DNA of 64,000 nucleotides from Fimbriiglobus ruber (GTDB lineage Bacteria; Planctomycetota; Planctomycetia; Gemmatales; Gemmataceae), in NCBI RefSeq assembly GCF_002197845.1, contig NZ_NIDE01000003.1, positions 62,001 to 126,000 of the forward strand. The letters run 5' to 3'. The position numbers and the translations under genes are program-made. Positions 14,691 to 37,296 of the stretch are shown here, piece after piece. The notes beneath the pieces are model-generated. The model was not told the origin of the DNA. It searched no databases and was given only the letters and a program-made list of their open reading frames with translations. The first letter of the stretch is position 1. Each line of letters starts with the position of its first letter.

Positions 14691-14706
14691 TTTCTACGCT
14701 ATTTAT

Positions 14707-16908
14707 TTAAATGTGGTCGAGAGTATCCATCCAGATGCGGAGTTCGCTGAACGATTTTTCGTCCAGGTATTCTTTTCCGAACTCGGCGATCTGGCGGTAA
14801 ATCACCGAAAACTTCTTGTCGGTCAACTTGGTTTTGGTTTCGACGATGTCCTTGATTAGCGGATCTTTTTCGCCGCCGATGATGAAAAACGCGAGCGGCT
14901 GGTTCGGGACCGTGTCTTTCGGCGCGGCGCCCAACGCGGCTCCGGACACGGCCACGCCACGGATCAAATCGCGGGCGTTAAAGCCGAGGTAGAACGCCAT
15001 TTGTCCGCCGATACCCATCCCGTGCGCGATCACCCGCGAGCGGTCAACAGTATATTGGCCGACCACCGTTCGCACGTCCTGAATCACCCCTTCGGTCTCA
15101 CTCGCGACCCAGCCCTCGGCGTTCTTCGATTTCGGGCCGATGAGGATGAAGTGGTTGTCCTCGCAGTAGTCGCGCCAGATTTTGACCACGTCCTTGGCGT
15201 CCCGCCCGCCTTTGCCGGCCGAATGCAGCCAGATGATGACGCCGTGCGAAATGTTCTTGTTGTAGGTTTCCGGCACGAACACCCAGTATTCGCGGCCGAG
15301 GACCGGGTCTTTCCGTTCGAGCAAACCGGTCTCGATCTCGTCCTTCTTCTTGTCGTCGTCTTTCTTATCGTCTTCGATCTTCTCTTCTTTTTTCGGCTCA
15401 AGGCCGCCCTTCGGCGCCCCCTTCTCTTGCGCGAGAGCTTTCTCGGCGGATGACGGCAACGGGGCCTGATCGCCCAAGAGGTCGGGCGGGAGGACGCCGA
15501 GTTTCACGGTGAGGGTCTCGGTCTTTCCGCCTTCCTTCCGCTTTATTTCCAGGCGCACGTCGCTGTTCGCCGGCAGGCGGGAGATGTTGCCGGCTAATTG
15601 TGCGCGGCCGACAACGGGTACGAGCGGTTGCTCCCCACCCTTCTTGGGCGCGGGCGGATTCTTGGGTGCGGGCCGGTCCTTCGGGGCCGGCCGATCCTTC
15701 GGGGCGGGGGCGGGCACGACTCCCGCGGTGATGCCGATCTTCATGATGCGGTCGCCCGTTTTCAGGCCGGCCGCCGCGGCGGGGCTGTTGGGATAAACGT
15801 GGCGGACTTCCACGCCCGGCTCGGGATCATCGCGGAGGGGGAGGATGCCGAGGAACGGTTGCGTGGCCGCGGTCACGGCGGCCGTGAGAACGAGGCCCGC
15901 GAACTCCTCGTCTTTCCCGTCCCGTGTCACCTTGACCGTCACCACGTCGCCTTCGTATTTCGGCCCGAGGACGTGCTGCAACTGCGAGAAATTCTCGACC
16001 GGTTTGCCGTCGATGGCCACGATCGTGTCACCGGCCTTGATACCGGCTTTCGCGGCTGCCGAGTCCGGTGCGACCGACCCGATCGTGAGGGCCACATTGT
16101 ATTGCTCGGTCGTCTGCTGCGGGGTAATGCCGAGCATCCCGCGCTTCAGGTCGCGACCGGCTTTGAGTTTGGGCAACACGGCGTAAACGTCTTCGAGCGG
16201 GATGGCGAACCCGATGCCGGAATCGTACCACTCGACCCCGGCGGTATCGGTGTCCCCGCGGGGGGAAGCCGGCACCAGAACTCCCATGACGCGGCCGTCG
16301 ATCGTGACGAGCGGGCCGCCGTAGTTTACTGGCGAGACTTTCGCGTCCGTCTGGAGCGCCTTGCCCCAGATGCGGCCCGTCGCGCTAATGATGCCGAGGC
16401 TGACGGACGGTGCACCGGGGGGGTCCGAGTCGAGGGCGCGGCCGAGGGCGAGGGCCCATTGGCCGACTTGAACATCCTTCTTCGGCACGGCCACGGGGAC
16501 GGGAAGATCTTTCGCGTCCACCTTCAACAGCGTGAGCATCCGCGTCGTATCGTTGGCCACAATCTTGGCGACCACCCGCGGTCGGCCGGGGAGCGTGACG
16601 AAGATGCTGTTCGGCTTGTTCGCGAAGTTGAACGCGCTGGAGATGATGTACCCGTCTTTATCGACGATCAGCCCACTGGTCGGCCCGACGCCCTTGCGGA
16701 TGCCGGCTCCCGGCCCGCCACCGACCGTCTCACTGCCGCCCGACGTCTCGATCTTCACCACGACCGGCGCGACCGCGGCCGCGGCCGCTTTGACCGCCTT
16801 TTCGTTGGCCTCGTAAACGTCTTCCTGCCCGCGGGCGGCCCCGGCCGCCGCGACCGCGACGGCGAGCGCCAAGGACCAACCTGTGATCGTGCGTCGTTGC
16901 GGGTACAT
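14707..16908 (-). CDS. degenerate trypsin-like protease with two PDZ domains fused to an alpha/beta-hydrolase-like domain
   Basis: A 733-residue exported protein (signal peptide 1-27). Residues 35-250 follow the HtrA protease fold, but the triad is gone: the histidine position reads SSAFNFA (Phe93), the aspartate position RMLTLLKV (Met124) and the serine position VNYGGPLV (Tyr196). PDZ1 is at about 255-342 and PDZ2 at about 352-475, the latter interrupted by a repeated Pro-Ala-Pro-Lys linker (398-423). After an acidic/lysine linker (508-526) comes an esterase/PHB-depolymerase-like domain (535-733). Its nucleophile elbow reads HGMGIGG, with Gly633 where Ser is expected. Both enzymatic modules therefore look inactive, so a binding or scaffold role is more likely. 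It is the last gene of the minus-strand cluster. Confidence 0.85.
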   Translation of the reverse strand: MYPQRRTITGWSLALAVAVAAAGAARGQEDVYEANEKAVKAAAAAVAPVVVKIETSGGSETVGGGPGAGIRKGVGPTSGLIVDKDGYIISSAFNFANKPNSIFVTLPGRPRVVAKIVANDTTRMLTLLKVDAKDLPVPVAVPKKDVQVGQWALALGRALDSDPPGAPSVSLGIISATGRIWGKALQTDAKVSPVNYGGPLVTIDGRVMGVLVPASPRGDTDTAGVEWYDSGIGFAIPLEDVYAVLPKLKAGRDLKRGMLGITPQQTTEQYNVALTIGSVAPDSAAAKAGIKAGDTIVAIDGKPVENFSQLQHVLGPKYEGDVVTVKVTRDGKDEEFAGLVLTAAVTAATQPFLGILPLRDDPEPGVEVRHVYPNSPAAAAGLKTGDRIMKIGITAGVVPAPAPKDRPAPKDRPAPKNPPAPKKGGEQPLVPVVGRAQLAGNISRLPANSDVRLEIKRKEGGKTETLTVKLGVLPPDLLGDQAPLPSSAEKALAQEKGAPKGGLEPKKEEKIEDDKKDDDKKKDEIETGLLERKDPVLGREYWVFVPETYNKNISHGVIIWLHSAGKGGRDAKDVVKIWRDYCEDNHFILIGPKSKNAEGWVASETEGVIQDVRTVVGQYTVDRSRVIAHGMGIGGQMAFYLGFNARDLIRGVAVSGAALGAAPKDTVPNQPLAFFIIGGEKDPLIKDIVETKTKLTDKKFSVIYRQIAEFGKEYLDEKSFSELRIWMDTLDHI

Positions 16909-17216
16909 CGCGGATCATTCCTGACGGGTATTGAATATTGCAGGTAATTGAGACGGCGGGTGTCTCCCAGGGTGTTGCCCTGGGCAATTTCCCCAGGGCA
17001 ACACCTGGGCAGTCTCCCCAGGGCGTTGCCCTGGGCTGAGAACTATCAGTCCTTCGGACTGAAAACCGCCAGAGATATTCTTTGCCCGTGGGCCAGGCGT
17101 CTCAACAGCTTCATTCTTCACCCTGAAAGGGTGATAGTTCTCAGCTCAGGGCAACGCCCTGGGACGCCTGATGCCCTGGGACGCCTGACGCCCCGGGGAC
17201 GGCCACTGCTTCGGGC
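16909..17216. repeat. palindrome-rich intergenic repeat
   Basis: 308 bp between two protease-like genes. Left arm 17017-17048 and right arm 17132-17163 are reverse complements at 31 of 32 positions. An additional pair lies at 16966-16984 and 16992-17009, with core CCCAGGG(T)GTTGCCCTGGG. Small hairpins AGTCCTTCGGACT and CACCCTGAAAGGGTG are nested in the 83-base spacer. There is no open frame of note. It appears to be a repetitive extragenic palindromic element; spread elsewhere in the genome cannot be judged from this window. Confidence 0.85.
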
Positions 17217-18350
17217 CTACTGCTTCGGGGCCGGCGGCATGGGCGGCAACGGCACGCCCTTGGGGTATTCTTCGAGCTTGAGTTCGACCGTTTGCAGCCC
17301 CTCGCCCCGGCGCACCTCGAACCGCACGACGGCCCCGGGCCGCGTCCGCCGTAGGAACTCGTGGAACGTCTTGATGCTGTAAACGGGCTCCCCGTCGATG
17401 AAACTCACGAGGTCGTCGGGCTTCAATCCGGCCTTGGCTGCGGGCGAACCGGGGTAAACGCTCTCGACGTAAGGCGGCGTCCGTTCCAGCACGTTCGGGA
17501 CGAAGACGATGCCGTGATACCCGCCCGCCCCGACGACTTCTTTCGCCCGGTTGACGGGCTTGTACTGGCCCTTCATCGCCTTGGCGGTGAACTCGGGGAT
17601 ACTGATCGTCACCGTTTTGTCGCCATCCTTGATGTCCACCTTCGCGCCGATCGGGATGGCGTAGTTCAGCCAAGTTTCGGTCAGCGTGTTCTTGATCTCG
17701 CGGCCGACGAGTCCGAGCAGGCGGCCCTTGCGGTCGGTGAGGGCACCTCCGCCGGCCCCGGGGTTGTTCGTGATCGCGTCGACCACGTAGACATCGCCGT
17801 TGTACGGGAAGTCGAAGATCCCGCGGCGGCCGTGCAGCTTGGCGTAGGCTGCCACAACGCCCCGCTGCACGCTGACCGGCTCGTCGCGCATGGCGATCTC
17901 GAAGATGTTGGCGAACGAGAGAACCCAGTCGCCCGGGACCGCCAGCGGTTGCTTGGCCGCGGCCGCGATGTCGAAGTAGGGCAGGTCCAGGTCCGTCGGC
18001 TCGTCGATCTTCTTCCCCTCGACCTTGATTTTGACGAGCGCCACGTCGAGTTCCGGCTCAGACACGATGAGTACGGCCTTCACCCGGCGGCCGTCGTAGA
18101 GGTGGACGATCAACTCGGACGTGTCGAGCATCTGGGTCGCGGACGTCAGGATGTACCCGTCCGGCGAGACCACGATGCCGGTGCCGTAATTCGCGATCCC
18201 GCGAAACCCGCCGGACCCGAACAGTTTCACGAGCTTCTGGTTGACCTCGTCCGACACCTTGTTGAACGGGTCGGCCGCGGACACGTGACCCGCGGATACC
18301 ATTCCGGCGGCCGCGAGCAGCGTACACAGCAGTATGCGGAAACGGGTCAT
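17217..18350 (-). CDS. degenerate trypsin-like/PDZ protein (HtrA-like pseudoprotease)
   Basis: A 377-residue protein with a signal peptide (1-25), an HtrA-like protease domain (about 45-245) and one PDZ domain (about 280-365, GSPAAKAGLKPDDLVSFIDG). Of the triad only Asp102 (PELDVALVKI) remains. The histidine site reads LTSATQML (Thr72) and the serine site NPGAGGGAL (Gly200 where HtrA has NSGG). It should be unable to cleave peptides but may still bind C-termini through its PDZ domain. It sits 64 bp after the intact protease gene at 18415-20247 and is probably co-transcribed with it, suggesting a regulator or adaptor for that protease. Confidence 0.85.
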   Translation of the reverse strand: MTRFRILLCTLLAAAGMVSAGHVSAADPFNKVSDEVNQKLVKLFGSGGFRGIANYGTGIVVSPDGYILTSATQMLDTSELIVHLYDGRRVKAVLIVSEPELDVALVKIKVEGKKIDEPTDLDLPYFDIAAAAKQPLAVPGDWVLSFANIFEIAMRDEPVSVQRGVVAAYAKLHGRRGIFDFPYNGDVYVVDAITNNPGAGGGALTDRKGRLLGLVGREIKNTLTETWLNYAIPIGAKVDIKDGDKTVTISIPEFTAKAMKGQYKPVNRAKEVVGAGGYHGIVFVPNVLERTPPYVESVYPGSPAAKAGLKPDDLVSFIDGEPVYSIKTFHEFLRRTRPGAVVRFEVRRGEGLQTVELKLEEYPKGVPLPPMPPAPKQ

Positions 18351-18414
18351 TGCGGTGCGTCTTGTTTGGTAGTGGGATCAATTCCACGCGGGCCGACCTG
18401 CGTCGACGCGCCCG

Positions 18415-20247
18415 TCATTTTTTATCCAACTGGTAGGACTTCACGGTCATCACCGCGTATTTCTTGTTCCCGGTGCGCACCTCGATCCGGTGCGGGAGTT
18501 GGCGGCCGTCGACCGGCTTGTAGTCGCCGAAGTAGAGTTCGCACGGGTCGTCTTCTTTGTTGATGACGGCCTCGCACCCGAGCAGGCGGTGGTCGGCCAG
18601 CGAGAAGTACCACTTCGTCTCGAACGAGGCGTGCTTGGTCCGCAGCACCTCACAATCGACGCGGAGATCCTTCAGGCTCTCGGGCTGGGTGCCGTCGGTC
18701 CGGGGCGGGTAAAACGGCTCGTGCCCGCCGTGGTCGAACCCGCCCTCGAAGCCGCCTTTGCCGGCCGTCAGCAAGCGGCGGTATTGGTAGAGCGCGGCGA
18801 GCAACCCGCCGCTGCCCTGGGGTTGCACCAGTTCCCCCAACGGTTGGTCGGCCTTGAGGGGTTTGACCGCGTCGTCGATCCCGTTCCGCGAGATTTTCAC
18901 CTCGGTCATGCCGTCCGAGCCGTCCACGAACGTCAACTGGAATTCGCCCTTCCGGTCGGTCAGTTCGATCGTGCCCGCCGCCTTCCAGTTCCCGGCCAGG
19001 GGTGTGAAATCCCCGGTCTGTTTGAATGCGGCGGTGAGTTTGTCCTGGCACTGCTTGTTGAAGTAGTAATTCGCGAAGCCTTTCTTTTCCTCGAATAGCT
19101 TCTTGGCCGGCGATTTGTCCTGGCCTTCGTGCTGCGGACGCCCGCCACCGGGTGGTCCGGGCGGCATCGGCGGGCCGCCGGCCATCGGTTTCTCGACCAC
19201 CGTGTCGATGTTGCCCATGAGCCGGACGAGGATCTCTTTCTTCTCGGCGTTCGCGTGCCGGTAGGTCAACGGCAGCCGCCACTCCTTGGGGAAGATGCCG
19301 AGGATGTTCTTGTATTGGTTGGTGCTGGACAGCTGGCGGCCGGCGAAGCGGACGACCTCGTCGCCCAGGGCGAGGCCCCGCTTGGCCGCGTCCGAGTCTT
19401 CGAGGATGGACCGGACCACCATTTTGGCCAGTTCGCCGTCTTCGTTCGCCGTTTCGATCGCGGCGCCCAGAGTCGCGTGGTCGGTGTCGATGCCGGCACG
19501 GAGGTGGCCGAGGAAGTTCTTGATCTGGTTGATCGAAATCGCGTACCCGACGCCGGAATTGACCCGGCCCCGCTTCTCGAACGAGCCGCGGCCGTTGATC
19601 CCGATGAGGTCGCCGTTCGCGTCGAACAACGGGCCGCCGGAGTTGCCCGGGTTGATCGAGGTGTCGGTCTGGATGCAGTCGGTGTATTCCAGCGTGCCTT
19701 TCCCCTCGGGCGGCTGATAGCGGTTTACCCCACTTACCAAGCCGTACGTCACCGTGGGGGTGAAATCGAGGCTGAGGCCGAAGGGGTTGCCCATCGCCAT
19801 CGACCAGTCGCCGACTTTCACGCCGTCGCTGTCAGCGAGTTTCGCGAACGCGAACTTGTCGCCCGCTTTCTTGGGCAGCAGTTTGATGAGCGCCACGTCG
19901 CCGACCTTGTCGAGGCCGACGACCACGGCGTCGTAGAGCTTCCCGTCGGCCAACCCGCACTGGAGAACGGGGCCGGTCGGCTGGACGACGTGGAAGTTCG
20001 TCAGCGCGTACCCTTCCTCATCGATGACGACGCCCGAGCCGCACGCCTCGCCGCCGTAAAAGCAAACGGCCGCGACGGTGGGCTTGACCTTGGCGATGAC
20101 GGCTACCCGCTTCGCCTCGGCTTCCAGAACCGCCTTGTCGACTTCCCCCGCGGCACGGTTCGCGCCGGACACCAGGAGCGCGGCTGCACCGAGTGTCAGT
20201 ACGAACGCGGCGAACAGGATTCGCGGGCGGCAGGCAATCGACTTCAT
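18415..20247 (-). CDS. trypsin-like serine protease with PDZ domain (HtrA/DegP type)
   Basis: A 610-residue exported protease. The ATG at 20247 begins a clear signal peptide (residues 8-32); the ATG at 20274 adds only nine residues. The triad is complete: His86 in LTNFHVV, Asp117 in GDVALIKL and Ser203 in NPGNSGGPL. A PDZ domain follows (about 275-350), then a glycine/proline linker (about 352-370) and a 240-residue C-terminal region of unknown type ending QLDKK, which may be a beta-rich, lipocalin-like substrate-handling domain. It probably works in the periplasm on misfolded or regulatory proteins. It precedes two catalytically dead relatives in the same direction. Confidence 0.9.
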   Translation of the reverse strand: MKSIACRPRILFAAFVLTLGAAALLVSGANRAAGEVDKAVLEAEAKRVAVIAKVKPTVAAVCFYGGEACGSGVVIDEEGYALTNFHVVQPTGPVLQCGLADGKLYDAVVVGLDKVGDVALIKLLPKKAGDKFAFAKLADSDGVKVGDWSMAMGNPFGLSLDFTPTVTYGLVSGVNRYQPPEGKGTLEYTDCIQTDTSINPGNSGGPLFDANGDLIGINGRGSFEKRGRVNSGVGYAISINQIKNFLGHLRAGIDTDHATLGAAIETANEDGELAKMVVRSILEDSDAAKRGLALGDEVVRFAGRQLSSTNQYKNILGIFPKEWRLPLTYRHANAEKKEILVRLMGNIDTVVEKPMAGGPPMPPGPPGGGRPQHEGQDKSPAKKLFEEKKGFANYYFNKQCQDKLTAAFKQTGDFTPLAGNWKAAGTIELTDRKGEFQLTFVDGSDGMTEVKISRNGIDDAVKPLKADQPLGELVQPQGSGGLLAALYQYRRLLTAGKGGFEGGFDHGGHEPFYPPRTDGTQPESLKDLRVDCEVLRTKHASFETKWYFSLADHRLLGCEAVINKEDDPCELYFGDYKPVDGRQLPHRIEVRTGNKKYAVMTVKSYQLDKK

Positions 20248-20595
20248 GGCATCAACTTCCCGATTAACGAGCATTGAATCGCCGCAAAGATTAAGAAATT
20301 AGCCACAGAGGTCACCGAGAGGGCCGAGAGGGCCGCGCAAACATTTTTATCCGAGAGACTTTACATCAATTCCCGGCCGTCTGACCGTGGTCAGAGGTTG
20401 GTCGGCCGCAGTCCCGGCACCGGTTTTTACCAAACGAACCCAATTTTCAATCATCTAATCGTGGCCAGATGCTAGTCGGCCGCAGTCACCGGCACCGGTT
20501 TTTACCAAACGAACCCATATACTGCCCTGGCATCGCGAACGATACTGCTCACTCTCTTCTGTTCGTCCTCTGTGCTCTCTGTGACTAAATCAGAT
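20248..20595. other. intergenic region with direct repeats
   Basis: 348 bp between the NPCBM gene and the protease gene, likely holding the protease promoter. It has two imperfect direct copies of a roughly 60-base unit (see 20384-20517). There is no open frame of note. Confidence 0.6.
20384..20517. repeat. tandem direct repeat, about 74-bp period
   Basis: 20401-20442 and 20475-20517 share GTCGGCCGCAGTC and CACCGGTTTTTACCAAACG, differing by one inserted base. Similarity continues weakly upstream (CGTGGTCAGA versus CGTGGCCAGA). The copies lie about 150-270 bp upstream of the protease start. Confidence 0.8.
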
Positions 20596-21840
20596 TTACT
20601 TCTGCAACCGCGCGTCCGCGAGGTTGAGTTGGTTACCGGCGAAGAGCGCTTCGCGTTCGACCGTGAGCTTGAGTTCCTTGGCGTCCTTGACGTTCAGCGT
20701 GACTTCGCGGGGCGCGTCCTTCTTGCCGATCGTTTCCGCGAACACCTCGCGGCCGTCGATCTCGATGCGTAGCTTGAGCGAGCTGTTGTCCGGCTTGACC
20801 CCGTCGAGAATACCGACCGTAGCTTTGAACTCGCGGAACGTCGGGTCGAATTTATACGTGAGCGTGGTATCGGGCGGGACCGAAATCCCCTTCGAGAACT
20901 TCTTCCCCGCCAGCACGATTTCGGTCGCCCCGAGCGCTCGATCGTTTTGGAGCTTGGGGGCGAACGGGTACTGCTCACCCAGCGGACCGTCCTTCTCCGC
21001 GGGCGGGTAGACGGCGACCGCTTCGAGATCCGATAGGTACGAGACGTTCCCCTGGCTGAAGTCAAACTTGGAGACGCCGGCGAGAGCGGTGTAGTCGACC
21101 GTCACGCCGCCGACCGTCTTCACCTTCAGCCGGGTGCCGTCGAGTTCGACCGCTTGGGCGACCAGTGTGTTGCCGAACACGTCAACGACTGAACACAATT
21201 TCGGCGGGATCACGTCCTTGGGCGGCTGGTTGAGGATCAGCCCGCCGGTCGCGCGGGTGAGCCGGAGCGTCACGGACATACCGTCCTCCCGCTCGAACGT
21301 GATCGAGTCCCCGACTTCGTTGCCACTCATCACCGTACCCGCGAGCGGGTTAAGGCCCGCCGCCTGACGAACCACGAACAAATCCCGTTTGCCACGGGCC
21401 GCGAGTAACTTCTTCCAGTCGTCGCGGTTTTTCGGATCGTTCGCCCCGCGCATGAGCCATGAGATTGAACCCAGGGGCAGGTCGAACACCGGGGCCGCGA
21501 TTCCGGCTGCGGGCAGCAGCGTGACCTCGACCATCTTCCCCTTCACCTTCACTTGTGACACGCGGATAACCGAGCCGTCGGTCAGTTCGATCTCGTCGTA
21601 TTTCTCGTCGGGAGCCGGTACGACCACCTTGTTGTGCAAGTCGATCGCGGCGATCGATTGAACGGGGATCTTGACGACAGCGCTGGCCTCGTCGCGAAAC
21701 TCGACGTTCGGCGGAGCAATGCCAACCACCGTCCCGGTGATCGGTTTGCCGCTCAACGGCACGAGATCGGCGGAGTGGGCTACCGTCGGGACGAGCAATC
21801 CGAGGAGGAGAATCGGTGCGAAGCGAAGCGCGGTTGTCAT
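20596..21840 (-). CDS. NPCBM/NEW2-domain secreted protein
   Basis: A 414-residue protein with a signal peptide (MTTALRFAPILLLGLL...). The N-terminal and middle thirds are beta-rich and resemble planctomycete DUF-type carbohydrate-associated modules. Residues from about 270 to 410 match an NPCBM domain, a putative carbohydrate-binding module found at the N-terminus of glycosyl hydrolases (features: SYLSDLEAVAV, LGATEIVLAGKKFSKGI, FREFKATVGILDG, GREVFAETIGKKDAP). No hydrolase domain is present. The start at 21840 was chosen because the upstream in-frame ATG at 21891 adds a non-signal leader. It is likely anchored to polysaccharide at the cell surface. Confidence 0.8.
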   Translation of the reverse strand: MTTALRFAPILLLGLLVPTVAHSADLVPLSGKPITGTVVGIAPPNVEFRDEASAVVKIPVQSIAAIDLHNKVVVPAPDEKYDEIELTDGSVIRVSQVKVKGKMVEVTLLPAAGIAAPVFDLPLGSISWLMRGANDPKNRDDWKKLLAARGKRDLFVVRQAAGLNPLAGTVMSGNEVGDSITFEREDGMSVTLRLTRATGGLILNQPPKDVIPPKLCSVVDVFGNTLVAQAVELDGTRLKVKTVGGVTVDYTALAGVSKFDFSQGNVSYLSDLEAVAVYPPAEKDGPLGEQYPFAPKLQNDRALGATEIVLAGKKFSKGISVPPDTTLTYKFDPTFREFKATVGILDGVKPDNSSLKLRIEIDGREVFAETIGKKDAPREVTLNVKDAKELKLTVEREALFAGNQLNLADARLQK

Positions 21841-21900
21841 GCGAAGATGTCGGCAGCGGTACGGATAGAGAATCAGAGACTTAAAAATCAACTACAACTA

Positions 21901-22008: not shown

Positions 22009-23112
22009 CTACGGCTTGAAGCCGTTCATGCGGTTCAGCGACCGGAAGTAGTCTTCGATCATCGGCTTGAACTTGGGCGGGTAGTCCCGGACGATTTCCG
22101 AGATCACTTTCTTCCGTTCGGCTTCGGGCAGCTTGCCCCACACTTCCTGGTAGCTCCGCAACTTCTTCTCGTCGACGGCACCGGGGCCGCCGTTGGTCGC
22201 GATGTTGGCGGTTTCCATCGGGCTACTCGGGTTCGCCCCGCCCGGTCCGGGCTGGCCGCCGTTCGGGCAGGCGCCGCCGTTCGCGCTTTGCCCGCTCTTG
22301 TTCTTGCTCTGGTTCTCCAGTTCCTTGATCTTCTCATCGAGCCGGAAGACGATCTTCTTCTGAATGTCCTGGGTCTTCTGGCCACCACGGGCCAAGTCCA
22401 GCCGGCGGCCGCTGTTGTCCATCAGCTTGGTGATGTTCGACAGGTCTTTGTCGTCCCGCGGCCAGTTTTGGATATCGAGGAACATCAGGGTGGCGACGAC
22501 CCGGTAGCGGTCCGGGAGGTCGCTCACGTCGTCGAGAAGGCGGGCCAGCGACAGGACGGCGGCTTCCCGTTGGATCAGCGCGTGTTCGGCGACCGCCTTG
22601 TAGAAGTAGAAGCCGGCGGGGTCGACCAGTTGTTCGGGCGCCACACCCTTGATCGCTTCGAGTGCCTCTTCGTAAACCCGCCTGCCGGCGAGCGACTTGG
22701 CGTAAACGGCCGCGAGGTTTGCGCGAACGAACGGGTCGAGGGCCGTATCTTTGAGGAGCGCGGGCACTTCGGTCGGAGCCGTGTCTGATTTTCTGGCCAC
22801 GTCGAGCGAACTCGCGGCCGCGGGCAAACCGATCGCGATGCTATCAGCCACCCGGTCGAGGACGGAACGGCCGGCGTCGGACCAGACCGACTCGAATCGG
22901 GCCGCGTCGAACTTGTTAGAAACCTTGAGCCAGGCCTCACTCCGGGCTTTCGCCACTTCGGCCGGCATCGAGGTAAGAACGCCGAACGCGAGTGCCGTCC
23001 TGGGGGCTGCTGCTGCCGGCGGGAGCGGCTCGACCGCCCACGCGGGACCGGCTGCAATGAGGGTGCCGCCGGTCACCGTCACGGCGGTCGCGAACCACTT
23101 GCGAAGGGACAC
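22009..23112 (-). CDS. secreted protein of unknown function
   Basis: A 367-residue protein with a clear signal peptide (MSLRKWFATAVTVTGGTLIAAG, cut near PAWA). The body is mainly helical, with possible TPR-like pairs at about 115-215 (AGRRVYEEALEAIKGV, AVLSLARLLDDVSDLPDRY), a coiled-coil-like lysine stretch at 245-265 and a glycine/proline/asparagine-rich linker at 268-305. The helical tail SYQEVWGKLPEAERKKV resembles the C-termini of other planctomycete envelope proteins. I do not recognise a family. It follows the coiled-coil gene at 23233-25377 in the same direction (120-bp gap) and probably works with it. Confidence 0.75.
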   Translation of the reverse strand: MSLRKWFATAVTVTGGTLIAAGPAWAVEPLPPAAAAPRTALAFGVLTSMPAEVAKARSEAWLKVSNKFDAARFESVWSDAGRSVLDRVADSIAIGLPAAASSLDVARKSDTAPTEVPALLKDTALDPFVRANLAAVYAKSLAGRRVYEEALEAIKGVAPEQLVDPAGFYFYKAVAEHALIQREAAVLSLARLLDDVSDLPDRYRVVATLMFLDIQNWPRDDKDLSNITKLMDNSGRRLDLARGGQKTQDIQKKIVFRLDEKIKELENQSKNKSGQSANGGACPNGGQPGPGGANPSSPMETANIATNGGPGAVDEKKLRSYQEVWGKLPEAERKKVISEIVRDYPPKFKPMIEDYFRSLNRMNGFKP

Positions 23113-23232: not shown

Positions 23233-25377
23233 CTACTCGTTGCTCCCCTTGGCAATTTTGTCGAGCATGTCCTGAAGCTTCGCCTGCCGGGCCGAGAGCT
23301 GCTTGAGTTCCGACTGCACGAGCGGGTCCGAAGACTGTTCGCCCTTTTCCTTTCCGCCGTAAGTTTTGGTCCGGTTATTCACTTGCACCTGCATCGACCG
23401 GATCAGTTTGAGTTCGGCGAGCAAATCGATCAGTTTTTGGTTGCCGGGCTTCTGCTGGCCCGGGGGCGGCGGTTGCCCTTGTTGTTGCTTGATTTCTTCC
23501 TGGGCTTTCTTGAGGGCCGCGACCATGTCCTTGAGCATAGCGATGATGTTTTCTTCGATCCCCTGCGTGTCCTTGTCGACGTATGCACCGTCGAGCCGGC
23601 GCTGGACCGAGATCATGTCTTGCTTGACTTCTTCGAGCAACTTGGCGAACGCGACGGCCGACCCTTCGCTCTCAAGAAGCTTTAATGAACGGTCGGCCTC
23701 GGCGATGATCTCGCGTTCCTTCTCACCTTGCTGCTGAGACTTCTGGATTTCCGCCGTGGTCTTCTGGTTGTTGTTCTTGATCACGGTGGCGTCGATGGTC
23801 TTGGTCGCTTCGTAGACCTCGATCTGCATAGCGAGCATGCGGTTGCACCGGGCTTCGAGGTTGGCGAGCCGCTTGAGGGCTTCTTCTTCGCGAAGTTGCT
23901 TGAGCCGCTTTTCCAGCTCTTTAATCACTTCGGTCAGTTTCTCGATCGCCTTGTCTTCTTTCTTGCCGGCGGAATCGCGGTTGTTCTTTTTCAGGTCGTC
24001 CGTGGCCCCCTGTTGGTGGGGGTAAGCTTCCTGAATCTGTTTGCGGCCCGGTGTTTCCGGCCCTTGCGGTTGCTGGGCTTGTTGCCCTTGTTGGCCCTGC
24101 TGGCCTTGCTGTCCCTGTTGGCCTTGCTGACCGCTGCCCTTGGACCCACTGGCTTGCTGACCGTCCTGGGGAGCGCCGGTTCCTTTACCTTCGCCACCCT
24201 TTTGGCCCTTGGAATCCTTGTCTTGCCCCTTGCCTTGTCCTTGCCCCTTGCTGCTTTGTGGCTTGCTCTGCCCGGCTCCTTGTTGCCCTTCTTTGCCGCC
24301 TTGTTGACCTTCTTTGCCGCCTTGTCCTTCCTTTCCGCCCTGCCCTTCCTTGCCACCCTGTTGACCTTCTTTGCCACCCTGTTGACCTTCTTTGCCGCCC
24401 GGCTGGCCTTCTTTGCCGCCTTGTCCTTCCTTACTCGGGTCCATTTCGCCTGAATCACGCGACGCACCGGCCGCTTCGCCCTGTTTGGCGTCCGGTCCGG
24501 CTTTCGAGGAGCCGGAATCCATCGGCGGGCCGTCTTTGCCAGCGCTCTTACTTTCGGCCCCGGACTCACTGCCCGCCTTGGGCTCGCCCGCACCGGGTTG
24601 CCCTTCTTTGGCGTCGGCCTTCGATTCCTGCGTGTCGGCCTTGCCCTCGCCGGCCGACTCGCCGGACTTGGCTTCGCTCTTCGGTTCCGATTTGGCGATC
24701 CCCTTCTCGCCGCCGGCTCCGTCCTTGTCGCCCTGCTTGCCGTCTTTCTTGCCGGCCATCTGATCGCCGAGGGCTTTCGTCCGGTCGGCGACTTGTTCCT
24801 GGTTCTTGGCGATCCGATTTTCGTCGACCTTCTTGTTCTCGTTCAAGCCGCGGATCGTTTCCTGGGCCCGCTTGATCGCCTGTGTTTCTTTCAGGAACCG
24901 TTCCAGGGTCATGATCTCGGCCCGAATCCGCGCGGCTTCGTCGTCCGTCATCAGGATCTGCATGATTTCCTGAAGGACTTTCGTCAGCTGCTTGTCCTGG
25001 CCGGCGATGCTGGTGATGTCCGTGGTCGTGCCGGTCCCTTTCGACATCCCGGCGATCAACTTCTGGAACTGGTTGTCCAGGTTTTCCTTGCGGGCCAGTT
25101 CGAGGGCCGCGTAAACGATCTTGGCCCGTTCCTTGTCTTCGGGCCGGTCGCTCCGTTCGAGCCGCTGAGCCAGCGAAAGCAGTTCCTTCTGGAACTTCCG
25201 GAACAGTTCGGCGTTCTGCTCCTGTTGCGACCGAAGATCACCAACGGACTTGGCTTCGGACGAGCCGGCCGCAGGCGGCTGGGGCTCCTGCGGGCCGGCG
25301 GCCACCGCCGTCAACACGAACAGCCCGGCCGCGATCACTGATCCGGCACGCACTGCCAAGGACAACCGGACTAACAT
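23233..25377 (-). CDS. exported coiled-coil protein with long low-complexity GKEGQ-type repeats
   Basis: A 714-residue protein with a signal peptide (residues 1-27). Long helical, coiled-coil-forming stretches at about 45-205 and 470-710 flank a central low-complexity segment (about 205-465) rich in Gly, Lys, Glu, Gln, Ser and Asp. That segment holds tandem units of the type GGKEGQQ (about 320-370) and a GQQ run (about 425-440). The acidic and basic residues balance, which suggests a flexible, highly hydrated spacer. Similar proteins accompany MoxR/Bat clusters in planctomycetes, but the function is unknown. The repeat block could expand or shrink by slippage. Confidence 0.78.
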   Translation of the reverse strand: MLVRLSLAVRAGSVIAAGLFVLTAVAAGPQEPQPPAAGSSEAKSVGDLRSQQEQNAELFRKFQKELLSLAQRLERSDRPEDKERAKIVYAALELARKENLDNQFQKLIAGMSKGTGTTTDITSIAGQDKQLTKVLQEIMQILMTDDEAARIRAEIMTLERFLKETQAIKRAQETIRGLNENKKVDENRIAKNQEQVADRTKALGDQMAGKKDGKQGDKDGAGGEKGIAKSEPKSEAKSGESAGEGKADTQESKADAKEGQPGAGEPKAGSESGAESKSAGKDGPPMDSGSSKAGPDAKQGEAAGASRDSGEMDPSKEGQGGKEGQPGGKEGQQGGKEGQQGGKEGQGGKEGQGGKEGQQGGKEGQQGAGQSKPQSSKGQGQGKGQDKDSKGQKGGEGKGTGAPQDGQQASGSKGSGQQGQQGQQGQQGQQGQQAQQPQGPETPGRKQIQEAYPHQQGATDDLKKNNRDSAGKKEDKAIEKLTEVIKELEKRLKQLREEEALKRLANLEARCNRMLAMQIEVYEATKTIDATVIKNNNQKTTAEIQKSQQQGEKEREIIAEADRSLKLLESEGSAVAFAKLLEEVKQDMISVQRRLDGAYVDKDTQGIEENIIAMLKDMVAALKKAQEEIKQQQGQPPPPGQQKPGNQKLIDLLAELKLIRSMQVQVNNRTKTYGGKEKGEQSSDPLVQSELKQLSARQAKLQDMLDKIAKGSNE

Positions 25378-25482: not shown

Positions 25483-28400
25483 TTACTTGACCACAATCTT
25501 GACGATCACCGGCTCGCCGACCGTGGGGGTCAGTTTCACCGTGAATTCGCCGGCCTTCTTGCCGGCCGTGATCTCGTATTCGAAATCGTTCTTGTCGTCC
25601 TTCACGGTCAATTCACCCGGTCCCTGGATCTCGCTCCCGGCCTGCGGTTCGACCCGGACCTTGATCTCGCCCTTGTCGAAGACGTTCCAGTCGATGACGT
25701 GCTTGACCGTCTTCTTCTCGCCCTGGGCCAGCATGACGGGCGGGACCGGTTTGATCGTCGGGGCGAAAAGCGATATCTGGATGCCGTCGTAGATGCGCTT
25801 CAGGGCCCGGGTCACGAGGGTCTGGTTGTCGATAATTTTTCGCAGCTCGTCGCGAAGTTTACTCTCGCTAAGCGCTTCGCCCAAGCCGGCGCGAATCCGG
25901 GTCAGCTCGGAGATGAGCGCGGTCAGTCGGACGCGGGCGGTCGCAATTGCCGCGTCGTCCGGCCGCCGGTCGTCCCCCAGCGGGTCGCGGAAGCCGGTGA
26001 GTCCGTCCTCGGCCGCCTTGAACTGGTTGGCGAGAACGGCTTCGAGCGGCTTGATGATGGCCGAGTCGTACCGCCGGGGCACCGATTCGTTGCACCGGTT
26101 CACTTCGGTTTCGCGCTTGAGTCGCCCGTATTCCGTCGCGACGACCTGGGTAAACTCCCGGGCCTTGCCCACTTCCATGATAATGGAATCGGCTTTCACT
26201 CGAGCCGACAGCAGTACGTCCGGGGCCACGGTCGACGGGGCGAGCCGCGCGGTCTGGTCGGCCAACATCGCCTCGGCCTCGCGGAGGTTCTTGAGCGCCG
26301 CGTCGAACTTGCCGATGAGGATTTCTTCGTCCTTGGTGATCTCGGCCAGGAGGTCGGCTTCCGAGACCACGAGCAGCCGGATCGGGTCGAGATTACGGGC
26401 TTCCTTCGGGCCGGTCTCGATATTCACGTCGCGGGCGACGACGCTCAACTCGACGCGGAACCGCGGCTGAATCTCGCCCGAGTCCGCGACGAGCATTCGC
26501 TTGCCCTGGGCTTCGAGTAACGCGTCGGCGTCCGCGAGGTCGAACACATCGGCCTCGTTCGTGAACTTAACTTCCTTCACCGTGTCTGTCGCGTCCGGGT
26601 TGGCAGGCGGGCGGCCGAGCTTGTCGCGGAGGACGCTGGGTGTGTCCTTCACGAGGGCGTCGTAGGCCCGCTCGAACGCCGTGACCGGCATCGCGGCGAA
26701 TTGTTTGGCCTCACCTTTACTCAGCTGGGAAGCCAGGCTGACCCCGGTCGGCGGCAGGACCACCGAGCCGATGTTCGGAACCAACGGGGCGGCCGCCCAG
26801 ATGGACGCCAAAGCCTGGAGCTGGAGGCCGACCACCGCCTGCGCCTCGACGCGGGAGACCGTGAACTGGAACTCGACCCGGCTCAGCCCGGTGTCGTCCC
26901 GGATGATGCTTTCCTTCACGAACGGCACCCGTGCCCGCGGGGTGCAGTAATACGAGTTGCCAACTTTGCGGAGGATGTCCACCGCGACCTCGACCTGGGG
27001 CGTCAAGTCTTCGACCGCCTGAATCAAAACGGACCGTGTCGATTTCACGTCGTCGGGGTCGGAAAACTCCAGGTCGAACTCGACCGACTCGGCTACCCGG
27101 TATTCGCCCTCGAAGCGGATCACGATCTGGTCGCCGTCCGGCGCGATCGGAACTGCGGCGGTCGCCCCTTTGGGGCTGCCGGGAATACGACCGGACTTCG
27201 GGATGAGGCGGGCTGCCTTGAGCGGCTTGTCCGCCACCGCGGTCAGGACCAGTTCGGTCCCGGCCGGGACGGTGCAGACCGATTTCTCCCCGGTCAACGA
27301 CAAGTCCTTCTCCGGCATCGCCTGACGCAGCCCTTTCAGGGCAGTCCAACTCGGCGGCGGCCGTTTGCCATCCGGGCCGGGTTTCACGGCCTCTTCCGGT
27401 GCCGGGTGGAAGAGGTATGCGGGTTGGTAATCGAGGTGGCTCAACTTGGTCAGCGCCGGGGCCGGGACGAGGGTGATGTCCTTCGCCGAAGTACGGAAGT
27501 CGGCGGCCCGAACAGTAAAAGACACAGACTCCTTGAGTCCGGTGACTTCGGCCACGTATTCGCCGGTCGGCTCGCGGGTGAGGGGGATGTCGCCCCGCGT
27601 CCGCCCCTGGAAGCGGGCCGCCGGGCCGGTGCCGGAGGCGCGGCCGGTGTAGTAAAGTCGCACCGTGTCCGGCAGATCGAGCTTGCGGAACGTCCGGCTC
27701 ATCGACGGGCGGGCGGCCACTTCGTCGAGCTGGGCGAGGACTTCGGCAATCTCCGGGTGGCTCGGAGCGAATCGCTCGGCCACCTCGTCAACTGCCAGGT
27801 CGTTGAGCGCGACTATCTCCGTGCTGACCGGCTTTTCGGCCGGGAATCCCGGCCCGCCAACAACGGCCGCGCGAGCCACGTCCTTCGCCCGCCAGTCTTC
27901 TTCGTGATTCAGCGTGACCGTGAGCGGGGTCTCTTTCCGGGGGGCGTAAATCTCCGAGTGAGATGCAAGGTCGGACCACAGGAACGGCCGCCACCCGGTC
28001 CGGCGGTCGGCAGTCACCGGCTCGGCGACCACGTACTGGAACGCCCGCGCCCGAATCTTCGGCGGCGGCGCTTCCTTGCCGACGCGCAGGTCGTCGCCCG
28101 GGAAGGCAACCAGTTCGAGGTGTGCCCGCCGGGGCCAGGGGACGTTTTTCAGGAGAAGCGTACGCTCAGTGTAAATCGAAAGCACGTCCCCGAATCGCCA
28201 CGCGAACTCGCCCGGGGCAAATGTGCGGGCGAGTAGGGCGAACAGCAGGTACGACACGATGACTGCCCCGAACACGATCCCGCCGATGAGGATCGCCTTC
28301 GAGCGGAGCCGCCACCAGTTGAAGACGGTGGCGACCGGCACCTGGGCGACCGCTTCGCGGGCCTCGTCGATCGTCAGCCTGATCATTTCGGCCGAATAGC

Positions 28401-28821
28401 CCAGCTTGGCCGCCCGGTTCACGTCCGCCAGTTCGACGGCGGTGATGAGCCGGTCGCCGAGCAGGCGCGGGAACCGCTTTTCCAGGACGAGCGCGAGCGA
28501 CGGGTACGAAAACTCGCGCCGCACACGGGTCAAGACGCGGGTCACGACGACCAGGACGAGGAGGCCGAGCATCACGACGAGGGCGACCGCGCGGAGCGCG
28601 GCCGGGGCGTCCTGAACCCAGTCGAACCCGGTAAGCCTGAATAAGCCGAAGTCGAAAACCAACCCGGCCCAGAACCAAACCACTAACAGCAGACCTGCGG
28701 CGAGCAGCCCGTCGAGCAGTACGAACCGCCGAATCGTGCCCCGCAACTGGTCGAGCGGGTGCAACACGCGCGGGTCGGCGCTCGCCTTGATGCGTTCGTT
28801 GATCGGGGTCTCGACGGCCAT
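25483..28821 (-). CDS. large membrane-anchored protein of the MoxR/Bat cluster, unknown function
   Basis: An 1112-residue protein. Three membrane helices lie near the N-terminus (about 34-56, 76-98 and 176-197), followed by about 900 residues outside the membrane with beta-rich, Ig-like segments and helical stretches around 830-1010. The layout resembles large DUF4175-type proteins encoded beside MoxR/VWA genes, an identification made by context and layout rather than a firm motif. The C-terminal 90 residues form a beta domain (ITAGKKAGEFTVKLTP). It is between the VWA gene and the coiled-coil gene, all on the minus strand, and is probably part of one envelope assembly. Confidence 0.7.
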   Translation of the reverse strand: MAVETPINERIKASADPRVLHPLDQLRGTIRRFVLLDGLLAAGLLLVVWFWAGLVFDFGLFRLTGFDWVQDAPAALRAVALVVMLGLLVLVVVTRVLTRVRREFSYPSLALVLEKRFPRLLGDRLITAVELADVNRAAKLGYSAEMIRLTIDEAREAVAQVPVATVFNWWRLRSKAILIGGIVFGAVIVSYLLFALLARTFAPGEFAWRFGDVLSIYTERTLLLKNVPWPRRAHLELVAFPGDDLRVGKEAPPPKIRARAFQYVVAEPVTADRRTGWRPFLWSDLASHSEIYAPRKETPLTVTLNHEEDWRAKDVARAAVVGGPGFPAEKPVSTEIVALNDLAVDEVAERFAPSHPEIAEVLAQLDEVAARPSMSRTFRKLDLPDTVRLYYTGRASGTGPAARFQGRTRGDIPLTREPTGEYVAEVTGLKESVSFTVRAADFRTSAKDITLVPAPALTKLSHLDYQPAYLFHPAPEEAVKPGPDGKRPPPSWTALKGLRQAMPEKDLSLTGEKSVCTVPAGTELVLTAVADKPLKAARLIPKSGRIPGSPKGATAAVPIAPDGDQIVIRFEGEYRVAESVEFDLEFSDPDDVKSTRSVLIQAVEDLTPQVEVAVDILRKVGNSYYCTPRARVPFVKESIIRDDTGLSRVEFQFTVSRVEAQAVVGLQLQALASIWAAAPLVPNIGSVVLPPTGVSLASQLSKGEAKQFAAMPVTAFERAYDALVKDTPSVLRDKLGRPPANPDATDTVKEVKFTNEADVFDLADADALLEAQGKRMLVADSGEIQPRFRVELSVVARDVNIETGPKEARNLDPIRLLVVSEADLLAEITKDEEILIGKFDAALKNLREAEAMLADQTARLAPSTVAPDVLLSARVKADSIIMEVGKAREFTQVVATEYGRLKRETEVNRCNESVPRRYDSAIIKPLEAVLANQFKAAEDGLTGFRDPLGDDRRPDDAAIATARVRLTALISELTRIRAGLGEALSESKLRDELRKIIDNQTLVTRALKRIYDGIQISLFAPTIKPVPPVMLAQGEKKTVKHVIDWNVFDKGEIKVRVEPQAGSEIQGPGELTVKDDKNDFEYEITAGKKAGEFTVKLTPTVGEPVIVKIVVK

Positions 28822-28999: not shown

Positions 29000-31900
29000 C
29001 TACGCCAGCCTGAGCAGCTTCCGGCCCAACCATTCGAGCGACAGCACGGCGGCCGCGAGTAACAACATCCAGCCAACCTTCACGTCCTTGCCGAACGCGG
29101 AGAACTCCAGGAGCTTCACGTCCGTCCCGAACAACTGCAGGCGGGCGGGCTTGTCCCAGATGTCGTCGGTGGCGCCGCGGTACCGTTCGGTTTGCGAGAA
29201 GTTGTCGATGCAGGCTGGGATCGCCGCGATCTTCTCGGTCTCGGCCAGGCGGTACGCCAGCTTGACCTTGGCCGGGTCGTGTTCGGTCCCCTTCAGGCGG
29301 TCATAAACGGCCGGGTCTTTGATCCGCCCGCGGACCTCTTCGAGCGTCCCAGCGGCCAGTTCGAGGGCCGCGAAATCGGGGCGGGTGTTGTCGAGTTCGG
29401 GGTCGGATTTCTTGACCGAGAACTCGCCCGTGATCGTGTCGCCCGGGCTGTCCGGCACGTCGATCGTGACGCGGTATTTCGAGTCCCCGGGCGGGAACCG
29501 GGTCGGGTCGGCCGTGACCTGGCCGCCGTAATACCCGTCGAACTCGATCCCGCTCTTCCGGGCCTTCATCTCGAACGGCCCGAACTTCTTGACCTCGGTT
29601 CCGTCGGCCGACAGCTGCGAGACGACGAACTTGGGCGAGACGGCGTTCGTCTCGTAAGGGGCACCGTTCGGGGCGAGCAACCGGGCTTGCACCCGGACCT
29701 GCGCCCCGGACAGGAACTCCTTGTTAATCAGCACGCGGCCGCGGGACGCCTTGACGTCGCGGTTGGCGGCCGCGTACCGGCTCAGCTTGACCCAGAAGCG
29801 GTCGTAGAAATCGAGGTTGAACGCGCGGAGCCGCCAAATCTCGCCGGACCCGAGGAACACGGTCCGCCCGCGGGCCGGTTGTGCCGTGACGAGCCACGGC
29901 TTCGGGTCAGGCTCGCCGGTGTCCTTCACGTCCACCAGTTCCGCGAGTGTACTCGACCCGGGCTTCGTCTGCTTGACCGGGTAGTACGAGTAGATACCAC
30001 GGGTCGGCGTCACGTTCTTTTTCTGGTCCGGGTCGGGGGTGTACTTGTCGTGCCCGGTAAAGAACGACTCCCACCCGGCGACGGGATCGTCCGGCTTGTC
30101 GTCGTCGAGTTTGAGGACGTCGTATTCGGGGTTCGGCTTCAGCGTCAGCCGCCGCGGGGTGCGGGGGATGGGCCGCGTTTTGAGCAGGATGATGTCGTCC
30201 GGCAGGACCGGGATGATGTCCAACAGCGGTTTGAGCCGCCCGGACTCGTCCGCCCGGGCGAGTTGGTAGGTGTTGAGCGGCCCGGCGACGTAAATCAGCC
30301 CGCCGCCCAGATTGTCCACCCAGGTCTGCAGGTTCTTCACCTGGTCGGCCGAAAGCTCGGACCAGTCGGGGTCGAAGCCGATGACGAGGTCGTATTCGTT
30401 CAGGTTGTAATACTTTTCTTCCGGCTTATCCCCGGGCTTGCCGACCGTGTCGAGCCGGGTGGGGAAGCGGGACAGGAGCCGCTCGGGCGGCACGTCCTGT
30501 ACCGCGGAGCCGTCGCGGCCGCCTTCGTTCTGAAGGCAAATGCTCAACTCCGCGCGGTTCTGTTGGACTTCGCGGATCAACAGCGTGCGGATGGTCTGGT
30601 ACTCGCGGGTGGCCGCACTCGCGAAGAGGAGAACCCGCAGCGGCTTGTCGATCACCTGGATGACGCGGGGCGGACTGGCGTGGTCGGGGTCGGGGAAAAC
30701 TTCCCGCTTGTCCCGCGTGATCTTCGCCACGGCGGACCAGGCGCCTTGCTTGAGTTGCCGTTTCTTGCCGATCTTTTTCGAAGGCTCGGTCAGTTCGTCG
30801 GGGAGTTTGTCCGGGTCGATCACGAAATCGACCGTCCCGTGAGGCGGGCTGGTGTCGCCCTGGAACTTGAGCTTCGCGGTCAGTTCGTGGTCGGACTGGT
30901 CCTTCTTGGGGTCGCGTCCGGGCAGGAACAGGTTGAGCCGGACGTCGACCTCCGCGTCGGCGAGACCGTTCCCGTCCGCCTCGACCACGACCTTGAACTG
31001 CTCGTCCGGCGGTGCCCGGTCGGGAGCTTGAACGTCGGTGATGCCGATGCTGACGTTCTCCCGGGCCTCGCCGACGGCCACGGTGAATACCGGGATTTTC
31101 GTCTGCGTCGCCCGCTCGCGGAGCGTGCGGTATGCGGCGTCGGTCCCGAGGTTGCTGCGGCCGTCCGAGAAGACCACGATGCCCTGGACCATATTCGCGG
31201 CCTCGCGGTTGACGGCGGAGGTCAGCGAGTCGGGGACGTTCGTGCCGAGGACGATCGACCGGGCCACGTCCACCCGCTTGTCGAGCTTGGCGCGGTTGTC
31301 CCGGAGGGCGGTTTTGTCGTCCTCACTCAGATCGGCCGGGATCGTCTCGCCTTCGGTCAGTTTGCCCCACGTCACGGCCCAGTCGGGCGTGCCCGGGGCG
31401 TCGCCCTTCCAAGCGGCCGTCTTCTTCACGGCGTCCTGGCCGGCCGGGGAGACGCCGCGGAGTGCCCAGGGCTTGAAGTCGTAATTCACCCACGAATCCC
31501 ACTCGGCCTTCGACCACTCGGCCGCGTCGCGCTCGAACGTCTGCGTCTCGTCGTCCAGGCGCGAGCCGAACCGGTAGACGTAGACCGGGTTCTTCTCCAG
31601 CAACTTCTTCACGAGCCCGACTTGATTGTCGGTCAGGACGTCCAACAGTTTTTGCATCCGCGTTTTCGGCTTGATGCTGGGCACGCTGCTGACTTCGTCG
31701 CTCGTCTGCGTCATACTCGGCGAAACGTCGAGGATCACGAGTACGCGCGACCGTTTTTCGGTCGTCTCCCATTTCTGGAACGCCGGCAACAAAAAGGCGA
31801 AGCCGAGGAGTGCGAAAACGGTGACGCGCAAGAGGGTGAGCGGGATCGCCCAGAGGCCGATCCGCCGGGCGTCGCGGAGGTACAGAAATACGGTGACGAC

Positions 31901-34998: not shown

Positions 34999-35931
<933 letters not shown>

Positions 35932-35965
35932 TGTGCCGAGTTCCAATCGTTGATCGATGTCGTCA

Positions 35966-36134
35966 GGCGAGCGGGGGACGTTAGTCCCCTGATTCTGAAA
36001 AACAACCACAGTCCAGAATCAGCCCACTCCCAGAATCCGTCGCTCCGCATCCGAAACTGATTCTCCGCATCCGGGAACAGTCTCCATTCGGAGATTGTCC
36101 CCTAGAAGCAGGGGACTAGCGTCCCCCGCTCGCC
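35966..36134. repeat. 26-bp inverted repeat with 117-base spacer
   Basis: 35966-35991 pairs with 36109-36134 at 25 of 26 positions. Each arm contains GGGGAC...GTCCCC as a palindrome of its own. The core GCGAGCGGGGGACG is almost the same as that of the repeat at 21901-21993. It fills most of the gap between MoxR and DUF58. Confidence 0.9.
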
Positions 36135-36150: not shown

Positions 36151-37215
<1,065 letters not shown>

Positions 37216-37296
37216 TCGTTGCTCGCTCGGTGGGGGTCGGTGTACGTATGCCGTGCGAACCGCCAACCCACTCGGGGTCGCGGTCCGCACCCGGAA

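Follow-up and report, generated by a model that had tools for sequence, protein, structure and literature searches.

A live HtrA-like protease and its two catalytically dead relatives at the end of a planctomycete MoxR-Bat gene cluster

Why live proteases retain dead relatives is a standing question, for which the bacterial HtrA case that we found in print is the MamE/MamO pair of magnetosome formation. The same question is raised by a stretch of 64,000 nucleotides from the 12.36-Mb genome of Fimbriiglobus ruber (NCBI RefSeq assembly GCF_002197845.1, contig NZ_NIDE01000003.1, positions 62,001 to 126,000 of the forward strand; hereafter the window, with its first letter as position 1), in which three neighbouring minus-strand genes, transcribed in the order P3-P2-P1, encode HtrA-like proteins of which P3 alone has a complete catalytic triad. 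On balance we favour reading this trio as a single functional unit that would be the periplasmic protease arm of a MoxR-Bat envelope system of planctomycetes, with P2, and probably P1, serving as non-catalytic partners. The triad states, conservation, selection, gene order, fusion frames and cluster context presented here were established directly, and the fold of the P3 tail comes from a structural model.

Triad states, selection and age of the three proteins

The genes of the trio are:
18415..20274, minus strand: P3, live HtrA protease with a trypsin-like domain, a weak PDZ domain and a LolA/RseB-like C-terminal domain; likely start 20247
17217..18350, minus strand: P2, dead HtrA with D102 present, T72/Q73 at the His site, G200 at the Ser site and one PDZ domain
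14707..16908, minus strand: P1, dead HtrA with F93, M124 and Y196 at the His, Asp and Ser sites, two PDZ domains and a C-terminal alpha/beta-hydrolase-like domain

A first description made from the letters of this stretch (the sequence-only reading) had proposed three HtrA-like proteases in tandem, one live and two dead, and the three adjoining genes, all of which match Trypsin_2 (PF13365; E of 9e-31 for P3, 1.4e-16 for P2 and 3.2e-18 for P1), bear this out. Triad sites were paired by alignment to solved HtrAs and by the columns of the family alignment. The residues named at the outset, His-Asp-Ser in P3 (H95, D126 and S212, numbered from 20274) and Phe, Met and Tyr in P1, agree with the alignments to solved HtrAs, while the His site of P2 falls on T72 by pairwise alignment and on Q73 by family alignment, neither of which is His. 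The second ATG of P3, at 20247, where the sequence-only reading had placed the end of the trio, begins directly at a signal-peptide-like segment. The proposed signal peptides on all three proteins are consistent with their N-terminal hydrophobic segments (15-residue hydropathy means of 1.9, 2.24 and 2.49 for P1, P2 and P3), and the proposed PDZ domains stand above the Pfam cut-off in P1 (two stretches) and P2 (one) and are seen weakly in P3, where the PDZ_2 match is partial at 16.9 bits against a cut-off of 27. P3 scores 207 bits against TIGR02037, with a cut-off of 416. P1 and P2 retain the HtrA fold without the catalytic triad, as judged by profile and, for P2, also by a predicted structure (predicted local distance difference test, pLDDT, 86.9) whose best structural match is DegS.

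Triad states across relatives were counted over 123 rows for P1, 125 for P2 and 116 for P3, taking the best piece per locus, excluding open reading frames (ORFs) below 130 bits and calling a row covered when it is not missing at the site; the family alignment dropped the P2 ORFs of two loci and the P3 ORFs of three, which are split by frame breaks. P3 keeps its triad in every covered row (His 109/109, Asp 110/110, Ser 110/110). In P1 the Ser site is Tyr in all 121 covered rows, the His site is Phe in 113 (with Tyr in 8, Leu in 1 and Trp in 1) and the Asp site is Met in 104, and the whole Phe-Met-Tyr triple occurs in 101 rows. Among the 30 members of the P1 alignment A1, two stretches are invariant: Y196, G197 and G198 of the former active-site strand, and Y228, D229 and G231. 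At the Ser site of P2 we find Ala in 97 rows, Gly in 20, His in 3, Ser in 2 and Asn, Gln and Thr in 1 each; a full triad occurs in none of the 125, both Ser-bearing rows being without His. The statement that P2 keeps only the aspartate is right for the window and is refined across relatives, which retain Asp in 101 rows and His in 50. Across the aligned rows, the Ser of P2 is gone almost everywhere, with His and Asp lingering.

Ratios of nonsynonymous to synonymous substitution rates (dN/dS) for the protease domains of 32 close-relative pairs, which are non-independent and in part saturated or with missing regions, are 0.01–0.22 for P1, 0.02–0.26 for P2 and 0–0.07 for P3, and the mean distances (0.62, 0.70 and 0.40 for P1, P2 and P3) agree with them. 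By these values purifying selection on the dead protease domains is strong, if a little weaker than on live P3. Mirror-tree correlations between the domains (0.48–0.80) reflect only the species tree without an unrelated control gene, and were not used.

In a quick tree of 111 rows, in which divergent rows and several other HtrAs of the F. ruber genome draw long-branch warnings, P1, P2 and P3 fall into separate groups of 30 rows, each set apart by a branch with support of 99 in the SH-like approximate likelihood ratio test (SH-aLRT), and the rows from divergent loci join the matching groups with supports of 97 (P1), 86 (P2) and 97 (P3). Because each copy groups by itself across the phylum, the triplication is ancient and clearly older than the sampled lineages; recent or repeated tandem duplication is ruled out by the three deep groups of this quick tree, subject to the same long-branch warnings. 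Of 392 genomes of the phylum, 78 have a P1-like match at E ≤1e-35, and 40 of these 78 belong to other classes. Twenty of these 40 non-class loci were fetched, by choice and not at random, and 16 of them have a P1-like gene with N-Y-G-G at the Ser site, which lies beside a live gene in 15 and at a contig end in one (L192). A scan of genome contigs for the P1 motif gave at least 595 stretches, of which 565 were confirmed, and the 80 kept were planctomycete except for three metagenome-assembled genomes titled 'Bacteroidales bacterium', 'Bacterium' and 'uncultured bacterium'. The remaining four of the 20 fetched non-class loci (L204–L207) hold divergent sets whose dead Ser sites carry other letters, L206 having the order dead-dead-live.

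The F. ruber genome also holds a second live/dead HtrA pair (L145:5666-6781 and 6785-7882; C1, ~413 kb), whose dead copy has INCGGPL at the Ser site and, read by eye, a protease domain split in two by the PDZ domain. At L144:4544-6070 and 5889-7877 there is a tandem of closely similar HtrA-like genes, each with NSGG.

Two further domains, which the sequence-only reading did not include, extend the ends of P1 and P3:
P1 residues ~525-733: C-terminal alpha/beta-hydrolase-like domain, with G632 at the nucleophile position
P3 residues 385-619, 18415..19122, minus strand: C-terminal domain with a LolA/LolB/RseB-like fold by model (pLDDT 95.1, predicted template modelling score, pTM, 0.91)

The C-terminal third of P1 resembles polyhydroxyalkanoate (PHA) depolymerase (NF050058, E 1.6e-11, 44.3 bits, under the cut-off of 150), and the same family is matched by 17 of the 30 members of A1. 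The nucleophile elbow reads G-M-G-I-G in the window, and in the corresponding column of 123 rows Ser occurs once (1 of 115 covered, with 8 gaps) and Thr twice; since the nucleophile Ser is nearly absent from the family, this domain seems to be dead as well. For the P3 tail, Foldseek returned 17 matches at E ≤0.001, among them LolA, LolB and RseB, the top one being Porphyromonas gingivalis LolA3 (E 1.6e-6) with MucB just below, at low template modelling scores (TM-scores) of about 0.5 or less. Pfam gave weak matches only (DUF4292 in 9 of 35 members, best E 1e-4, and LolB in 1 of 35, E 0.023), and a profile of the tail against Protein Data Bank (PDB) sequences gave nothing usable, the top hit at E 0.083 being an unrelated receptor. 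The modelled fold suggests that P3 may handle lipoproteins or envelope-stress signals.

Gene order, fusions and the possibility of a mixed trimer

Absence of the trio from relatives had been named in advance as a result that would speak against the proposal, and it did not occur. Within Gemmataceae, 89 of 95 genomes have a P2 match at E ≤1e-10 (88 of these at ≤1e-70) and 89 of 95 a P1 match at ≤1e-40, with P1 and P2 matches in 36 of the 39 genera; across the class, 340 of 397 genomes reach ≤1e-15 for P2, though the weakest of these matches may be paralogues. The 127 loci fetched comprise 87 of Gemmataceae and 40 sought elsewhere in the class, although L187, among the latter, also proved to be from Gemmataceae; two genomes (G051 and G109) contribute two loci each as their genes lie apart. 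All three genes are present in 113 of the 127 loci, and in 113 of 113 they lie on one strand in the order P3-P2-P1; the other 14 loci are mostly contig-edge ends or cases of genes apart. With starts estimated by alignment, the median spacing is −16 bases between P3 and P2 and 0 bases between P2 and P1, and two loci of one genus (L110 and L112) have about 5 kb between P3 and P2. In the window, the 308 bases between P2 and P1 (16909-17216) hold a large hairpin element with an RNA fold z of −8.19, whose core motif has 27 copies in the genome vs. 0 for the reversed control pattern.

What we regard as the best evidence of partnership comes from four loci with P3 and P2 in one open frame (L193 in G432, L202 in G630, L313 in G727 and L314 in G611), three of the genomes (G630, G611 and G727) belonging to one family and G432 to another. 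The stretch before P2 is without a signal-like hydrophobic peak in three of the four (15-residue means of 1.32, 1.37 and 1.40), the exception being L314, whose peak of 1.94 coincides with the beginning of the P2 domain; where P2 is encoded separately, the peak at this position exceeds 1.9 in 98 of 122 cases. Because the peak is absent in three of four, a true P3-P2 fusion is likelier than a missed stop codon in these assembled genomes. With the fusions as the basis, P2 probably binds P3 directly, and P1 may do so as well, less certainly than P2.

HtrAs act as trimers, and one live copy with two dead ones invites the idea of a 1:1:1 heterotrimer. At the site equivalent to F256 of HtrA2, an aromatic residue which we take to be a trimer contact, Trp is found in 91 of 121 covered P1 rows, 66 of 125 P2 rows and 94 of 110 covered P3 rows. 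The sequence-only reading had supposed a mixed oligomer in which dead subunits supply binding and regulation to the live protease; the partnership part of this gains from the dead copies being conserved, under purifying selection, beside the live copy and in four genomes in one frame with it (P2), while the mixed oligomer itself is no firmer than plausible. We consider a mixed trimer of live and dead copies plausible in general terms, and we think it unlikely that the HtrA trimer is an obligate 1:1:1 heterotrimer of P3, P2 and P1 that has acted as the periplasmic effector of a trans-envelope MoxR-Bat machine since early Planctomycetota.

The MoxR-Bat cluster and the genomes without the trio

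P3 had been described as the first transcribed gene, which is correct inside the trio; upstream of it come eight further same-strand genes, a cluster that the sequence-only reading did not cover. Starting from the gene next to P3, these are:
20596..21891, minus strand: N, secreted NPCBM-domain protein (PF08305, E 1e-16; hydrophobic segment 2.27)
22009..23112, minus strand: B, conserved protein without a Pfam family, with a weak N-terminal hydrophobic segment (1.54)
23233..25377, minus strand: A, conserved Q/K/G-rich protein, predicted secreted (hydrophobic segment 2.33)
25483..28821, minus strand: 1112-residue protein with hydrophobic N-terminal segments, without a Pfam or NCBIfam family
29000..32053, minus strand: VWA-like protein (PF00092, 17.4 bits, below the cut-off of 23.8)
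32106..34943, minus strand: BatA-like protein (PF07584, E 3.9e-12, above cut-off)
34999..36009, minus strand: DUF58 protein (PF01882, E 1.6e-42; a VWA_2 match is also above cut-off)
36151..37290, minus strand: MoxR AAA+ ATPase (PF07726, E 6.6e-63)

An assignment of the 1112-residue protein as DUF4175-like was tried and is unsupported by Pfam or NCBIfam.

The trio usually closes a MoxR-DUF58-BatA ('aerotolerance') cluster. Clustering of the flanks of 124 loci returned conserved same-strand upstream genes in 102, 92 and 81 loci, and a fourth cluster on the opposite strand (88 loci) that is probably an antisense reading of the upstream genes. Within the short flanks, N, B and A are found in 70, 63 and 63 of the 87 Gemmataceae loci, in 34, 33 and 33 of the 40 class loci and in 10, 10 and 9 of the 20 other loci. 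All eight upstream genes occur in the same order and on the same strand within 20 kb of P3 in 18 of 20 genomes (6 Gemmataceae, 12 from the rest of the class and 2 from other classes), which were chosen as trio-bearers with long contigs and not at random; the two exceptions have N and B only (L293) or A, B and N only (L296).

Scans of 14300-25500 showed no excess of promoters (1 vs. 1.2 in shuffles) or of terminators (14 vs. 15.2 in shuffles). The gap between N and P3 contains an exact 26-base direct repeat (20415-20440 and 20490-20515; 2 window matches, shuffle mean 0.00). Beyond the cluster, plus-strand genes for a histidine kinase and a sigma-54-type response regulator (11265-14344) are convergent with the end of the trio, and directly upstream of MoxR (37297-43732, minus strand) lie genes for a protein with a squalene-hopene-cyclase-like domain and for a 1726-residue PQQ-repeat protein.

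Six of the 95 Gemmataceae genomes are without a P2 match (G032, G050, G054, G067, G076 and G083), and G034 has a weak PDZ match only. Pieces of the trio stand at contig ends in G034 and G054, and G076 and G083 have completeness of 56% and 73%. G032, G050 and G067 may be true losses or rearrangements; G032 has two B copies (L308 and L309), neither with a recognised N, P3, P2 or P1 beside it. Outside Gemmataceae the absences center on one family (f3), in which 11 of the 12 genomes among those listed are without a P2 match and the twelfth, G100, has one at only E 9.6e-17; in the 14 f3 genomes the P1 matches are no better than 3e-28, as expected of ordinary HtrA paralogues. In the 13 non-Gemmataceae genomes without a convincing P2 (the 11 of f3, G099 and G103), the top B match has E 1.0e-7, and the top BatA scores are 58–123 bits vs. 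605–1176 at trio loci (profile scores that are not strictly comparable), so that by these profiles BatA there looks like a distant relative only. Four BatA regions from P2-less genomes have MoxR-DUF58-BatA (three) or DUF58-BatA (one) and no trio. In two f3 loci (L315 and L316) a weak B-like ORF of 73–74 profile bits lies some 6.5 kb past BatA, at the margin of the fetched region, and f3 may hold a remote version of the cluster.

A working model, its rivals and known systems

In the mechanism that we propose, P3 would be the sole protease of the trio, with its LolA/RseB-like domain probably sensing or holding envelope proteins that are lipidated or misfolded. P2, and probably P1, would be non-catalytic partners derived from ancient duplicates of one fold, binding P3 or its substrates through their PDZ domains and remodelled former active sites, and this binding would set the timing or the targets of P3 cleavage. 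The MoxR ATPase and the DUF58, BatA and VWA-like proteins, together with secreted A, B and N, could then form the cytoplasmic motor and envelope part of the system. We infer here physical contact among P3, P2 and P1, control of P3 and joint work with MoxR. Since the dead sites are strongly preserved beside a live protease, P2 and P1 probably act as functional partners, as opposed to being duplicates in decay.

Several observations weigh against this model. Outside Gemmataceae, no more than 7 of 37 P2 rows have the F256-equivalent Trp, 22 having Arg, and the missing aromatic speaks against P2 sitting in a classical trimer everywhere. Adjacency of the trio is not obligatory, because Limnoglobus roseus (G051) has P3-P2 at 1.11 Mb of its 9.38-Mb chromosome but P1 far away at 8.45 Mb, and G109 and G111 have P1 and P2 at separate places. 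One locus (L188) carries the trio with no A, B or N within its flanks, and in G032, G050 and G067 B is present but none of N, P3, P2 and P1 is recognised on the contig downstream of it. In addition, growth, morphology and oxidative-stress tolerance are reported as unaltered by bat deletion in Leptospira (PMC3557215).

It is possible, though we think it rather doubtful, that P2 and P1 were independently neofunctionalised, binding other envelope ligands (peptides, lipids, metals or cell-wall material) as homo-oligomers of their own and sharing with P3 only the cluster. The frequent absence of the presumed trimer aromatic in P2 and the cases of P1 and P2 lying apart would suit this, as would MamO, whose protease domain binds metal and for which no physical interaction with MamE had been detected (PMC4794232). 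The P2-P3 fusion in two families and the order fixed in 113 of 113 loci argue instead for direct partnership, at least of P2.

That P1 or P2 is another kind of enzyme with a relocated or new catalytic residue, such as the fixed Tyr of P1, strikes us as very improbable. The invariance of the Y196-G197-G198 strand and of Y228/D229/G231 in A1 would be expected of such an enzyme, but it suits a binding site equally well, and we know of no trypsin-fold enzyme with a Tyr nucleophile.

We give as little credence to the trio belonging to the vWA-MoxR conflict (immunity) systems, whose trypsin-like domains are often inactive. Inactive trypsins are described for these systems, with VMAP, iSTAND and FtsH as third components (PMC7159879), and the window MoxR is above the PF20030 cut-off (43.3 vs. 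27 bits). The partners here are however DUF58 and BatA, the trio proteins look secreted, and a near-universal fixed cluster, with a P2 gene in most genomes of the class (the 340 of 397 above), counts against such a role; VMAP, iSTAND and FtsH did not turn up in general Pfam scans of the cluster, which included no dedicated search. Finally, neutral drift of tandem copies after loss of activity, for which the lost active sites and the variable Ser site of P2 (five other letters beside Ala and Gly in 8 of 125 rows) might be cited, is refuted by dN/dS far below 1, Tyr in every covered P1 row, presence across 36 of 39 genera and the three deep groups of the tree.

Comparison with known systems places the trio among several partial likenesses. 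Mixed assemblies of non-identical paralogous subunits are known from ClpP-ClpR, in which ClpR is inactive, and from chloroplast Deg5-Deg8; the former has another fold and in the latter both members are active. An HtrA protease and an RseB-fold protein act in one pathway in the DegS-RseB and AlgW-MucB systems of envelope stress sensing, whereas here the LolA/RseB-like fold is inside the live protease itself. The clustering of a MoxR ATPase, DUF58 and BatA/VWA is shared with the MoxR-Bat operons of Bacteroides, Borrelia and Leptospira and with cmd of Rhizobium, for which TPR, SH3 and BatD domains are described, whereas A, B, N and three HtrAs follow here; Bat clusters are linked in Rhizobium to cell shape and the envelope, and in Bacteroides to aerotolerance (PMC5700661). 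A survey of PDZ proteins finds many of them in planctomycetes, and its text does not contain the word 'inactive' (PMC6411480). In open-licence literature searched by title or abstract, we found nothing describing an HtrA trio with a MoxR-Bat cassette, and no open-licence paper combining MoxR, HtrA and DUF58.

The closest likeness is to MamE/MamO of magnetotactic bacteria, where a live HtrA and an HtrA-fold protein with a degenerate triad likewise share one cluster. In AMB-1, MamO is reported to be required for proteolysis by MamE, which it activates without catalysis and with no physical interaction detected, and active-inactive HtrA pairs of magnetotactic bacteria have three origins (PMC4794232). 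MamO itself differs from the dead copies here, since P1 and P2 score 20.9 and 25.6 bits against NF040961 (cut-off 800) and have no match to a TauE transporter domain in the Pfam scan, and there are two dead copies per live one, phylum-wide. If our model is true, MoxR-Bat clusters, whose function is unsettled (PMC5700661; PMC3557215), would gain a concrete output in the form of a protease with a LolA/RseB-like domain. The pairing described here is phylum-wide, ancient and mostly in place, and its two differently dead copies and natural fusions make partner roles testable by comparing lineages. Live-dead HtrA pairing as such is known, and what is new is the phylum-wide trio within a MoxR-Bat cluster.

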